64,000 nucleotides of DNA from Liopterus haemorrhoidalis (taxonomy: Eukaryota; Arthropoda; Insecta; Coleoptera; Dytiscidae). Where the stretch lies: NCBI GenBank assembly GCA_963971575.1, contig OZ020622.1, positions 11,012,279 through 11,076,278 on the forward strand. Reading direction: 5' to 3'. Numbering within the stretch: position 1 is the first letter of the stretch; the number at the start of each line of letters is the position of its first letter. The position numbers were made by a program, and so were the translations under genes. Below are positions 9,666 to 62,457 of this stretch, piece by piece. A model generated the notes under the pieces. It worked only from the letters and a program-made list of their open reading frames with translations. It was not told the DNA's origin and made no database searches.

Positions 9666-10163
9666 AAATAAAATAGGTTTTAAAATATTATTTTATTATA
9701 CTGTTATACGCTGTGATTCAACCTATATTTTTAATTAATTTAGATTTGTGTTTTTAAGCTATCAAAGAGGAATAACTCATTTATAGTAATGAAATACTTA
9801 TAAACCAAATAACACATTGTTAATAGAGAAAAATACGTTTTTGAAATTGAAAAAAATGAAGCCGTTTATCAATATATTTCTTATTAATCTAATGAAGACT
9901 TGAATACGAAGCAAATGTAGAAAAAGGCGCTGGCATTTTTTCCCAGGTATATAATAAGTAAAGGCGGCATGAATGTGTAGGACAAATTTTGCTTTGTAGT
10001 AATCACGGCAAAATGAACGATATTTGTTACATAATTTATTGTCTGTTAATCTAAGAGCTTTAAAAACAAATTTTATGTTAAAATATTTTTTTGTTAATTT
10101 TAATTCGAATACCTAATACCATTATTTAGGTTTCTAGATATGTGCAGTATTTTTTAAACATAT

Positions 10164-10190
10164 ATATGTGTGTGTGTGTGTGTGTGTGTA
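10164..10190. repeat. (TG)n microsatellite
   Basis: An ATATATATG lead-in is followed by about 11 TG units, inside Helentron-like copy A. Confidence 0.9.
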
Positions 10191-10394
10191 TAGCAAGGTT
10201 CATTAAGATTTTGAAAATTGCGCCTATGGTTTCCATTGGTTGTCATATGCTCGCCCCTCTGGTTTCGTATACATGACATATAGAATGAAAATATAATTCC
10301 AACAATTCCAACAGTTTATTAAAGTTACGCTCTTAAAAATTAAATGCAACATTTGCTAAAATGTAACTAGAATATTGAAAAAATAATTGTCTCC

Positions 10395-10470
10395 TCTGCC
10401 CGGGAGCGAATCCTAGATTGCCGCGTAGCAAGCGAGCAAGCTAACCATTAGACCAGGTTACGCCTTCTAG
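10395..10470 (-). ncRNA. tRNA-like Pol III unit in element copy A
   Basis: On the minus strand TGGTCTAATGGTTAG (10455-10441) matches the tRNA A box with its D-loop GG. GGATTCGCTCCC (10413-10402) is a degenerate B box with a complementary GGGAGC/GCTCCC-like arm nearby. Spacing fits a tRNA body. A T-run follows. It lies at the same internal position as different tRNA-like sequences in the other copies. It is unlikely to be a functional tRNA. Confidence 0.6.
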
Positions 10471-11247
10471 TATAGTGTGTTACATAACTATAACTTTTGT
10501 ACATCGTCCTCCAAAAAACACAAAAAATGCGTTATTTTCCGAAAATATAATCTGATCAAAAATTTCTGTTGTACTATTCCGGTTCACACAAATGTACATT
10601 ATTTAGAATTTTTTCAGATTTTTAGTTTAAAACATCTGGGCTACAGGGTGTGGGACAACATTTGTTTGCACTATTTTGGCAAAAATCGCATCAAAATAAT
10701 TTATTTTGCAAAAACTAATAGCTTTCATTTGATACCCTAGTCAGAATTGTTTATATTTTTAGGGGAATATGTTTTTTAGATGTTTTAGTATTTTTCCTAT
10801 GTGTGGGTTAAAGACTTGTATAAGCATGCCAAATTTCAACTCTCTAGGTTTAGCCGTTTGGCTAAAATTTTTACTGAACAGACAGACAGACAGACGACAA
10901 AATGACGGTATATGGGTTTTTTGGTCATACCTACAAAACCCTAAAAACTGTTGACTTTGGTGTGATTATACAACAAATATTCCTAGACATCCAGGATTAT
11001 GTTGGCTTCTTATAATTACTAAATGCCTACAAAACCCTGAAATGAAAATTCACTCTTTACATCAATTTTTTAAAAGTATTCGAACAAAAACTGAAGTGGT
11101 TGTTTGTATGCATCCTTCACGGCAAATTGCAATCACGTTGAGATTTTTCCAGCCAAATAAATGTACCTTGTTTATTTATTTTGTTTGTAAGTCTTGTTAT
11201 GTCTGGCATTTAAAAATTGTCATATGTGAAAATTGTTACATCAATTG

Positions 11248-11665
11248 TAGAAAACTGCTGAAGAATACAATTTGAGGAATGCTACGATTCAATTTTTCTC
11301 AAATGCGACAGTATTATGCTGAATTTAAGAATACACCCTCAGAAGGTAAAAACTTTCAAAGTAGAGTTGAAATTGTTGAACGAATTATAGAACGCTAATG
11401 TACATCTACTTAACAGGTGGATTTTAATGGAATTTGAACGATATGGTTTATTGAAATACGTCTGGGATATTGCATTACGTTTACCAATAACCTTGGAGTA
11501 TTGGCTCATTCTCTGTAATGATGTACACTACAGAATACTCAAGGGTCATAGAATTCTGCCTATTTCCTACTCTAACAAGCGATGTTTAAACTCTTAAAAC
11601 ATAGTGTTATCAAAGAGCATCGAGAAACTGCTGAGGGGCAAGAAAAATGAAAATAAAATAATAAG
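11248..11665. repeat. Dispersed repeat, copy 2 (direct partner at 9236)
   Basis: Second copy of the ~430-bp repeat. The two copies flank Helentron-like copy A in direct orientation, about 1.6 kb apart. They may be remnants of one larger element or of a local duplication. Confidence 0.7.
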
Positions 11666-11984
11666 TTCATAATTCCTAGATGGGAGCATAAAATAAGATT
11701 ATTTCATAGAAATATCATTATATCCTTCAAACTACTGAACATATTTTCAAAATTATTTTTATTCTGGTAAGGATATAAACATATGTTGTCAGAGAATGCG
11801 ATAAATATCATTGGACAATACTGATTTCGTTTTACCCGCACACACAAATTATTATAACTTTGAAACCAATTAACCAATTTATCTTTATATTTAGATGTAG
11901 CCACAGACAGAGAAAAACCGCATGTAGAATCATCAGTTCTCAACTGAAAGGAGCACATACGGATAGACAGAGAGACGTTGCCTT

Positions 11985-60440: not shown

Positions 60441-60512
60441 CCAACTCTATAAAATAAGAATAGAAAAAGACAAAATAAAGAAATCAGTCTCAAATTGAAG
60501 TATTACTATTAT

Positions 60513-60712
60513 AATTTTTCCACATAATCACCATTTAGTGCAACAAATTTCTCCAAACGCTGAATCCATTTCTTCATTCCGTCTATGTAAACATTTTCTT
60601 GTTTACTGTTGATCCAATTGCGAACAGCAGCCCGAACTTCAGTGTCTGATGAAAAATGTTAACCTTTCAATAACTCCTTCAACTTTGGGAACAACCAGAA
60701 ATCTGAAGGTGC
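60513..60712 (-). pseudogene. Mariner transposase C-terminal fragment
   Basis: Minus strand: PSDFWLFPKLKELLKG (third catalytic D block), a stop, then HFSSDTEVRAAVRNWINSKQ, YIDGMKKWIQRLEKFVALNG, DYVEKL. A mariner-type tail, truncated on its upstream side. Confidence 0.8.
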
Positions 60713-60759
60713 TTTTTATTAATACTCTTTATTTAACTAGATCTACATACATGATGTAA

Positions 60760-61385
60760 CACATAGTTTTGATTATACAGTGTTTGTCAGGGTTTGTCAC
60801 GTTATGGGGTCGGTTCGAAAAACTCCCCTGTCACTTAATTTTATGTCTGTTAATTCGCTACTAATGTTTAATTGTTCGCTATCCGCACTATCACTGTCAC
60901 TGTCTATTATAGTGTCTTGCGGTAATTTTCTCTTTAATCTTCTGTGGATTTTTCGCTTGCCCAGTTCATAGTGTTTGGCACCGGAGCACTATCCAATTCT
61001 GTGGAAAAATTTTGTTGACAGCTTTTTCATGAATTCTTCTATTATCATTATACCCAGTTCCTCGTGTAAATGGCTGTTCCTGATAAACCACGGGCTGTTG
61101 GTGGTGATCCGTAATACTTTCGACTGAAAAGCTTGCAATTTTTTAATGTGTGTTCGGTGTGCAGCACCCGGTATGCATGCACGCGTAGGTCAAGGTAGGT
61201 CTCAGTATTCTTTTATTTATTAAGAGGGAACATTTTCTTTTTAGGGTTGATTTTCTATTTACTAATGGATAGAGCATCGCTAATTTAGTAGTCTGTTATC
61301 GAGATGCACCCCTAAATATCTTAATGCTTAGGCAGGTTCCATGGAATAATGTTGTTGTTAATAATTATATCTGGCAGGTTACTAG
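60760..61385 (-). pseudogene. Jockey-like LINE, C-terminal part
   Basis: Reading down from 61385: TCQI...NNNIIPW, a YLGVHLDNRLL-like block with frameshifts, CIPGAAHRTHIKKLQAFQSK, VLRITTNSPWFIRNSHLHEE, LGIMIIEEFMKKLSTKFFHR, one stop, then a Ser/Asp-rich tail to the stop at about 60800. This is the Jockey-clade C-terminus (KLQ.FQ.KVLR.I...PW++RN..LH.EL). It continues the RT piece on the far side of Helentron-like copy F. Confidence 0.8.
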
Positions 61386-61437
61386 TTTTTAGGGTTTTGT
61401 AGGTATGACCAAAAAACCCTTATACCGTCATTTTGTC

Positions 61438-61483
<46 letters not shown>

Positions 61484-62457
61484 TCGGTAAAAATTGTAGC
61501 CAAACGGCTAAACCTAGAGAGTTGAAATTTGGCATGCTTATACAATTCTTTGACCCACATATAGGAAAAATACTAAAACATCTAAAAAACATATCCCCCT
61601 AAAAATATAAACAAAAATGTGCTAAAAATTTTTTTAAAATTCTGAGTAGGGTATCAAATGAAAGCCCTTAGTACGTGGATTAACGATCAAAATTTTATTT
61701 TTGCAAAATAAATTATTTTGATGCGATTTTTGCCAAAATTGTGCAAAAAATGTTTTGTCCCACACCCTGGGACAAAAATGGATGGTTTAAACTAAAAATC
61801 TGAAAAAATTCTAAGTAATGTACATTGGTGTGAACCGGAATAGTACAACAGGAATTTTTGATCAGATTATGTTTTTGGAAAATAACGCATTTTTTGTGTT
61901 TTTAACTAAAATATGTTAAATATTTAATTCGCTATGTAACACTTCAGATAAGAAACTCTGGTAGCTCAGATGGTTTCGTAACGCACTTTGTAAATTGCAG
62001 TGCGAACGTTGCAGAGTTCGAATCCTGTTAATTTTATTTTTTTTCTGTTTTTTTTTTTGCATTTCTATTTTGTTTAAATTATTTTGTCAAAATTCTAGTT
62101 ATATTTTGGTAAATGTTGCATTTATTTTTTAAAAGCGTAAATTTAATAACCAGTGGGAAGTGTTGAAATTATAATTTAATTCTGTTTGACGAAATCAGAG
62201 GGCGGGACTTATGATATAAGCAACCGATGGAAGCCATAGGCGCAATTTTAAAAATCTTACTGAACCTTGCTGTATAAATAAAATACTGTACATATTTAGA
62301 AACTTAAATAATGGTATTAGGCATTCGAATTAAAATTCATAAAAAAATATTTTGACATAAAATTTGTTTTGGCATCCCTAATAATCATCATTCAGTTACT
62401 AAATACCTGCAAAACCCAGAAATGTGTGAAGATTCACACTTCACATAAATTTTTTTT
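61386..62457 (+). mobile_element. Helentron-like element copy F, inserted in the Jockey-like LINE
   Basis: Starts TTTTTAGGGTTTTGTAGGT, has eleven GTCT units (61437-61482), the conserved body, and ends ACCTGCAAAACCCAGAAATG, GTGTGAAGATTCACAC, TTCACATAAATTTTTTT. The two sides of the LINE (KMFTLR at 62458 and upstream; LPDIIINNN at 61385 and downstream) join in frame if it is removed, so the borders are well defined. Confidence 0.8.
61950..62045 (+). ncRNA. tRNA-like Pol III unit in element copy F (best preserved)
   Basis: TAGCTCAGATGG (61962-61973) is an exact A box. AGTTCGAATCC (62015-62025) is a near-perfect B box, and TTTTTTTT (62037-62044) follows as terminator. CGCACT-TTGTAAATTGC-AGTGCG forms an anticodon-like stem-loop in which TTGTAAA resembles the loop of tRNA-Thr(UGU). 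The acceptor stem does not close convincingly, so a functional tRNA is unlikely. Confidence 0.7.

Follow-up and report, generated by a model that had tools for sequence, protein, structure and literature searches.

Modular exchange of heads or bodies is a feature of tRNA-derived short interspersed elements (SINEs). Insect elements of this kind have been described (PMC8010984), as have two groups of rolling-circle transposons that come close to the family reported here. The HINEs, including DINE-1/INE-1 of Drosophila, are presented as non-coding elements of very high copy number with subterminal inverted repeats (subTIRs), a 3′ palindrome and central repeats (PMC4067079), and the lepidopteran Hel-2 Helitrons as carrying a (CTGT)n microsatellite downstream of the 5′ subterminal inverted repeat and a hairpin at the 3′ end (PMC4344730). 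In a 64,000-nt stretch of the genome of the beetle Liopterus haemorrhoidalis (contig OZ020622.1, positions 11,012,279 to 11,076,278 of the forward strand; hereafter the window), we analysed a Helentron-like family whose copies carry a tRNA-like module with A box, B box and T-run, here called the cassette, at one fixed site. In related subfamilies a block of ~80 nt, which starts about 27 nt ahead of the A box and extends as far as the B box, is ~5–40 times more diverged than the body upstream and the conserved block (D1) and tail downstream.

The family resembles the HINEs in all the features listed above, and Hel-2 in its 3′ hairpin and in having the same repeat unit, (CTGT)n/(GTCT)n, at the same place. 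Unlike the HINEs of PMC4067079, in whose main text the word 'tRNA' does not occur, it has a module of the RNA polymerase III (Pol III) type, and the HINE passages of that paper mention no hypervariable internal block such as we find here. Hel-2 differs in its 3′-CTRR termini, compared over a 250-bp consensus, and 'tRNA' is likewise absent from the main text of PMC4344730. With tRNA-derived SINEs the family shares an A/B-box promoter and modular evolution. However, a SINE has its promoter at the 5′ end of the mobile unit and a retroposed tail, whereas here the promoter region is preceded by ~490 bp of shared element, the unit is bounded on both sides by Helentron ends, and a predicted Pol III transcript that stops at the T-run would contain nothing but the cassette. 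No description of a Helentron with a built-in Pol III promoter, or of such a module, was found in the titles, abstract openings and selected passages of the literature searched.

Read in the orientation of the cassette, a copy consists of a T run and TTTTTAGGGTTTTGTAGGTATGACC, the (GTCT)n microsatellite, the body (the ~490 bp between the 5′ end and the flank motif), ~60 bp of proximal stretch, the cassette and its T-run, D1 (~100 bp), a tail segment that varies among subfamilies, and on the 3′ side ATACCTGCRAAACCC, a palindrome and a T run. The 5′ subTIR recurs in inverted form near the 3′ end (GGGTTTTGTAGGTAT and ATACCTGCRAAACCC), and AATGTGTGAAWATTCACACTT or a near variant forms a palindrome or stem-loop just inside the 3′ end in most copies whose 3′ end was located. 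Among the 103 copies of the main sample defined below, 5′ ends were located in 96 and 3′ ends in 96, with both ends sitting in T runs; the 3′ end was not located in window copy A and six other copies. Each of the 16 subfamilies shows at least one Helentron/HINE end. Since subTIRs and a 3′ palindrome are the marks given where PMC4067079 defines these termini, the termini are read as Helentron/HINE, and the family is a non-autonomous Helentron-like element (HINE), a small rolling-circle transposon. The subTIRs, the palindrome and the box scores reported below agree with the sequence-only reading of this DNA, which had placed a Pol III-type module at the same site in the copies of a Helentron-like family.

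The genome, 1.02 Gb in 91 contigs, was searched with one pattern from either side of the cassette. The 21-bp flank motif upstream has 17,835 exact places (0 for the reversed control) and a 38-bp D1 pattern, allowing up to three mismatches, has 29,830 (control 0), which puts the family size at the order of 30,000 copies. An exact-pattern search for relatives in IMG/VR and GTDB genome contigs returned none. The main sample was chosen by the upstream flank motif alone and comprises 100 motif places on contig C1 and four window copies, less the tandem duplicate L064:1265. Window copy C, with an extra T in its motif, lies outside the 103, and eight copies found by a query containing a cassette were left out. 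In a check based on D1 alone, 13 plus-strand places in C1:0.5-1.96 Mb comprised seven motif copies and six others, of which four share the body but carry a mutated motif, one combines an E cassette with different upstream sequence and one has lost the 5′ half of its cassette. The whole cassette was present in 12 of these 13 copies.

Copies were scored against the A- and B-box consensus. A box pair reaches at least 1.55 of 2 in 93 of the 103 copies, but in 0 of the same-length body and 0 of the downstream stretches; boxes are therefore the rule in the family, both in this sample and, judging by the whole cassettes, among the copies found through D1. Fourteen of the 16 subfamilies exceed dinucleotide shuffles at p<=0.006, with B2 at p=0.040 and C at p=0.140. 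As the scores lie above both shuffles and same-element controls, the boxes are not a product of chance. Together with their spacing and the terminator T-run that follows, they have the layout of a type 2 Pol III promoter, and the module is likely to act as one. The boxes are also better kept than drift from a good ancestor predicts at a divergence of 0.20–0.25 per lineage, the mean score over 11 lineages being 1.736 compared to 1.53–1.60 in simulated drift (standard deviation (sd) 0.03–0.05).

Clustering by overall cassette identity put most copies together; cassette labels were set by diagnostic words, which divide the 103 copies into 16 subfamilies of 1 to 12 copies each. The five window copies, A, B, C, E and F, exist as first reported: the same two conserved stretches enclose the cassette in each, its orientation within the element does not change, and pairwise alignments of the copies give 73–87% across roughly 500–1,100 bp. 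Each of the five does carry a different cassette, but the claim fails genome-wide, where the same cassettes recur; the window copies are drawn from five subfamilies, which gave the impression of one cassette per copy. Similarly, some cassette pairs do not align beyond the boxes, whereas A–G9, C–G9, A–Glu, E–G6 and F–H2 give strong whole-cassette alignments, and by eye the E, C, F, G6, G7 and H cassettes have much of the B-box half in common. Most cassettes appear by eye to form one homologous series, with L062, L097 and L044 as intermediates.

The divergence among related subfamilies is concentrated in this module. In the clade E/F/H/H2/G6 (32 copies), net divergence is 0.239 (bootstrap 0.209–0.287) in the block from +57 to +138, counted from the motif start, compared to 0.006 (−0.001 to 0.015) in the body, 0.011 in D1, 0.024 in the tail, 0.033 in the B box and 0.054 in the proximal stretch from +21 to +56. 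In 200 label shuffles, the block exceeded the highest value (0.108), but the body and D1 did not (maxima 0.008 and 0.011). A fine profile is flat to about +45, goes up at +57, ~27 nt before the A box, and comes down at the B box. In a wider set of eight subfamilies, net divergence is 0.32 in the A box, 0.16 in the B box and 0.165 in the proximal stretch, compared to 0.007 in the body, 0.026 in D1 and 0.038 in the tail; relative to the remainder of the cassette, the A box is not better conserved and the B box is so to some degree. For the youngest subfamilies, B1–B4, where alignment is easier, fixed substitutions per site are 0.082 in the cassette, 0.0044 in the body, 0.015 in D1, 0.005 in the tail and 0 in the 3′ terminus. 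Without labels, the mean distance over all pairs is 0.456 for the cassette, 0.402 for the proximal stretch, 0.111 for D1 and 0.078 for the body, and a single pair, L090 (F) and L084 (H), differs by 2.1% in body and D1 and by 43% in the cassette. Body or D1 single-nucleotide polymorphisms (SNPs) typical of B2, B4, E and H were also found; with the label-free values, they indicate that the cassette lineages are real. Labelled and label-free distances alike thus separate the cassettes from their flanks, and the large difference in divergence noted between module and flanks in the window is borne out.

Private mutations, taken as singletons in subfamilies of at least six copies with CpG and homopolymers excluded, occur per site at 0.0229 in the body, 0.0218 in the cassette, 0.0148 in the proximal stretch and 0.0179 in D1. 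The equal rates in cassette and body rule out hypermutation of resident cassettes and place the cassette excess in the source lineages. This bears on transcription-associated mutagenesis, in which source copies heavily transcribed by Pol III would mutate faster over the unit while selection spares only the boxes. tRNA genes reportedly mutate faster in this way (Thornlow and others are said to have described it in 2018), and their mutation excess is ~7–10-fold, which the fold-excess seen here resembles; the fast block also coincides with the expected transcription unit and drops at the B box. As in tRNA genes, then, change is locally fast over a Pol III unit and leans weakly to the expected strand: among private cassette changes, A>G and C>T account for 35 in 2,554 sites and T>C and G>A for 34 in 3,591 (ratio 1.45, one-sided p=0.077), compared to ratios of 1.14 and 1.02 in the body. 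This bias is a weak, non-significant hint of transcription-associated mutation, and it slightly raises the odds of that explanation and slightly lowers those of the one we favour. However, unlike tRNA genes, the resident cassettes show no private-mutation excess, and by eye the differences between the cassette majorities of B1–B4 include transitions and transversions as well as clustered changes and indels. The explanation also needs the assumption that transcription is largely confined to source copies. We consider mutagenesis of this kind unlikely to be the main cause.

The chassis around the cassette has its own history. Body alleles 223G/231T/506T are common to most G2 and most E copies, which are far apart by cassette and D1, while basal-looking G2 copies (L040, L081 and L094) and E copy L080 lack them wholly or partly. 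With B1–B4 merged, and with up to three rows short of columns for the nearest-neighbour counts, cassette labels change 34 times on the body tree (shuffles about 62, minimum 12), 22 times on the D1 tree and 13 times on the cassette tree. In its 5′ half the cassette of L062 lies 0.07 from L035 (H2) and 0.22 from F, whereas its 3′ half lies 0.08–0.13 from F and 0.25 from L035, in a comparison where L063 and L068 were without anchors. These three observations indicate that the chassis is partly uncoupled from the cassette and that cassettes can be mosaic. The sequence-only reading, which raised cassette exchange as one possibility, is borne out to the extent that recombination has partly separated chassis and module.

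The same observations could be explained by homogenisation of the chassis alone, the subfamilies being old, the cassette drifting neutrally under promoter constraint, and body, D1 and tail being equalised by gene conversion or recombination. Body alleles common to different cassette lineages, the poor fit of the body tree to the cassettes, the H2-like and F-like halves of L062, and the diverged tail of deep lineages are all what this would produce. Yet both sides would have to be equalised without the process ever crossing 80 nt, even among the very young B1–B4. Old lineages should also have left old copies, for which there is little room: the counts of 17,835 exact motif places and 29,830 near-exact D1 places are about what a private divergence of ~2% predicts, an estimate made by hand with the private rate taken from motif-selected copies and with both patterns favouring young copies, the D1 pattern also missing most of G2. 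Homogenisation alone seems rather unlikely; with transcription-associated mutagenesis in source copies, it is one of the two leading competitors of the explanation we favour.

A further explanation considered is that different tRNA genes or SINE heads were captured repeatedly at, or exchanged into, a single site. The Rfam search of the window gave no match at E<=1; for 18 representative loci there was no tRNA match at E<=10, and the 11 matches to other families were all below gathering scores. ARAGORN found no tRNA in the window or the 18 loci. In the 93 of 103 copies that have both anchors, pairing of the acceptor stem clearly exceeds shuffles in none but the two scored C copies (7/7); the stem of L027 (G9) also pairs 7/7. 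The tRNA fold of the cassettes is thus mostly gone, and a functional tRNA is ruled out by the missing Rfam and ARAGORN matches together with the loss of the stem, so the cassettes are not recognisable tRNAs. In a comparison with 10 host tRNA types, 13 of the 16 cassettes are closer to another cassette than to any tRNA, and with one SINE head included, independent capture was rejected for most cassettes; the B type is excepted and may be of independent origin. No cassette clearly outside the chassis was found in the samples: the 32 cassette matches off the listed motif copies, judged by coordinates, are uncounted or mutated-motif copies, locus ends or short D1-side matches, and the G2 word lies within the chassis at 8 of 8 exact places in C1:0.49-2.95 Mb. 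A homologous series, seen in the samples only within the chassis, makes repeated capture, which the sequence-only reading had offered, very improbable. As a separate observation on host tRNAs, three tRNA genes stand in tandem with a 149-bp period at G000:C4:60114433-60114803, and the one fetched is tRNA-Phe.

Our tentative preference, held at somewhat less than an even chance, is for a HINE family in which a fixed-site, likely Pol III module retains its boxes but its transcript is under pressure to change, most likely from silencing, on a chassis that is shared and exchanged. The fast stretch matches the portion predicted to be transcribed, as far as the B box, and the excess arose in source lineages. 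Selection on the transcript fits best, and escape from homology-dependent small-RNA silencing would be its likely candidate driver. One ancestral Pol III module would have stood at one site, its promoter pattern being kept and its RNA sequence not. The A and B boxes would be retained because Pol III (or TFIIIC) activity helps the element to amplify, while the RNA sequence itself would be dispensable and pushed to change. If host small-RNA silencing recognises only the transcribed stretch, each new cassette variant could found a new burst. Source elements would have a single chassis in common, which passes between them as they replicate or through gene conversion. A stronger form, which we regard as possible but doubtful, is a self-transcribed hypervariable locus in a DNA transposon, with the promoter kept, the transcript under negative frequency-dependent selection by host small RNAs and the chassis freely recombining. 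If true, the hypervariable Pol III locus would correspond, in a transposon, to an antigen-variation or self-recognition locus, and every new cassette would set off a burst.

Several results weigh against this preferred reading. Subfamilies C and B2 are weak in box scores, and simulated drift at 0.15 divergence per lineage is only 1.7–1.8 sd off, with maxima (1.743–1.780) that reach the observed mean. The A box varies like the rest of the block (net ~0.24–0.32), so that conservation is limited to its pattern and to the B box; in the wider set the B box itself has a net value of 0.16. Divergence is raised also in the proximal stretch, in both sets, which lies partly upstream of any expected transcript. 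In deep subfamilies (at least four copies), the tail shows net values of 0.18–0.32 compared to 0.36–0.46 in the cassette, so the cassette is not unique there, although the tail alignment at this depth may include non-homologous sequence. Labels built from cassette words favour cassette divergence in the labelled comparisons, and the label-free measures agree with them but are less sharp. The body still holds subfamily signal (34 changes versus about 62), so recombination is partial. Finally, no autonomous partner is linked to the ends of the family in the 2 of 91 Rep upstream stretches read.

The element bears on two questions about non-autonomous transposons: the reasons for the success of some of them, and the forces that keep dividing them into subfamilies. 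Since related subfamilies differ mainly in one short, probably transcribed module, silencing or transcription as a driver of turnover is directly testable, and selection, transcription-associated mutation and recombination could be separated, with resident copies giving the mutation rate and source lineages the fixation rate.

As for possible autonomous relatives, the genome carries intact-looking Helitron Rep genes: Helitron_like_N has 91 matches, many of them within long open frames. The family's 5′ end is absent from the two Rep-gene upstream stretches fetched (~2 kb each). Four Helitron_like_N matches in one orientation, three of them spaced 9.59 kb, lie at G000:C4:31619134-31653547 with 1664-amino-acid frames each, and are possibly a tandem array of autonomous Helitrons. 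In one E-type copy (L080:3861, contig C1 of G000), the expected 5′ end is missing and part of the upstream sequence matches the opposite strand of other copies, perhaps through an internal inversion. The copies of the window and their parts are listed in Table 1.

Table 1. Helentron-like copies in the window and their features (window coordinates)
Feature	Position	Strand	Details
Copy A (A subfamily)	9938..10947	-	5′ end 10947; 3′ subTIR-like word 9938-9950; 3′ palindrome not found
Cassette of copy A	10390..10475	-	A box 10445-10455; B box 10403-10413; T-rich run 10377-10388
Copy B (B1 subfamily)	18181..19068	-	5′ to 3′ terminus
Cassette of copy B	18465..18555	-	A box 18533-18543; B box 18470-18485; T-run 18450-18465
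Copy C (C subfamily)	23766..24513	-	flank motif 24027-24048 with one extra T; 3′ part unrecognised
Cassette of copy C	23900..23975	-	A box 23952-23962; B box 23908-23920; T-run 23883-23898
Copy E (E subfamily)	43614..44704	+	5′ to 3′ terminus; flank motif 44123-44143
5′ terminus of copy E	43614..43638	+	TTTTTAGGGTTTTGTAGGTATGACC, inverted match of 3′ subTIR
Cassette of copy E	44180..44282	+	A box 44208-44219; B box 44266-44278; T-run 44283-44306
Copy F (F subfamily)	61386..62454	+	5′ to 3′ terminus; flank motif 61878-61898; reference of the divergence profile
Body (5′ chassis) of copy F	61386..61877	+	holds the (GTCT)n microsatellite; almost undifferentiated among subfamilies
Cassette of copy F	61935..62029	+	A box 61962-61973; B box 62013-62025; T-run 62030-62047
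Fast-diverging block of copy F	61935-62016	+	+57..+138 counted from motif start
D1 of copy F, conserved block downstream of cassette	62068..62162	+	
3′ terminus of copy F	62403..62454	+	subTIR ATACCTGCAAAACCC, palindrome, T-rich end

At 21717-21993 and 55169-55286 of the window lie isolated tail or 3′ fragments of this family, ~85–94% like parts of the copies. Three related tRNA-derived SINE-like stretches with clear B boxes (42336-42473, 44998-45128 and 57070-57160) have positions unrelated to the Helentron copies. The window also holds, by eye from the translations, an open frame at 31126-32409 (+) whose product resembles the C terminus of a Penelope-like element that carries a GIY-YIG endonuclease, and frames like fragments of mariner/Tc1-type transposases at 17548-18201, 35384-35959, 52939-53286 and 56372-56725. 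Two large palindromes, at 20054-20748 and 57710-58401, match their own reverse complements at 87% and 86%, respectively, over about 700 bp.

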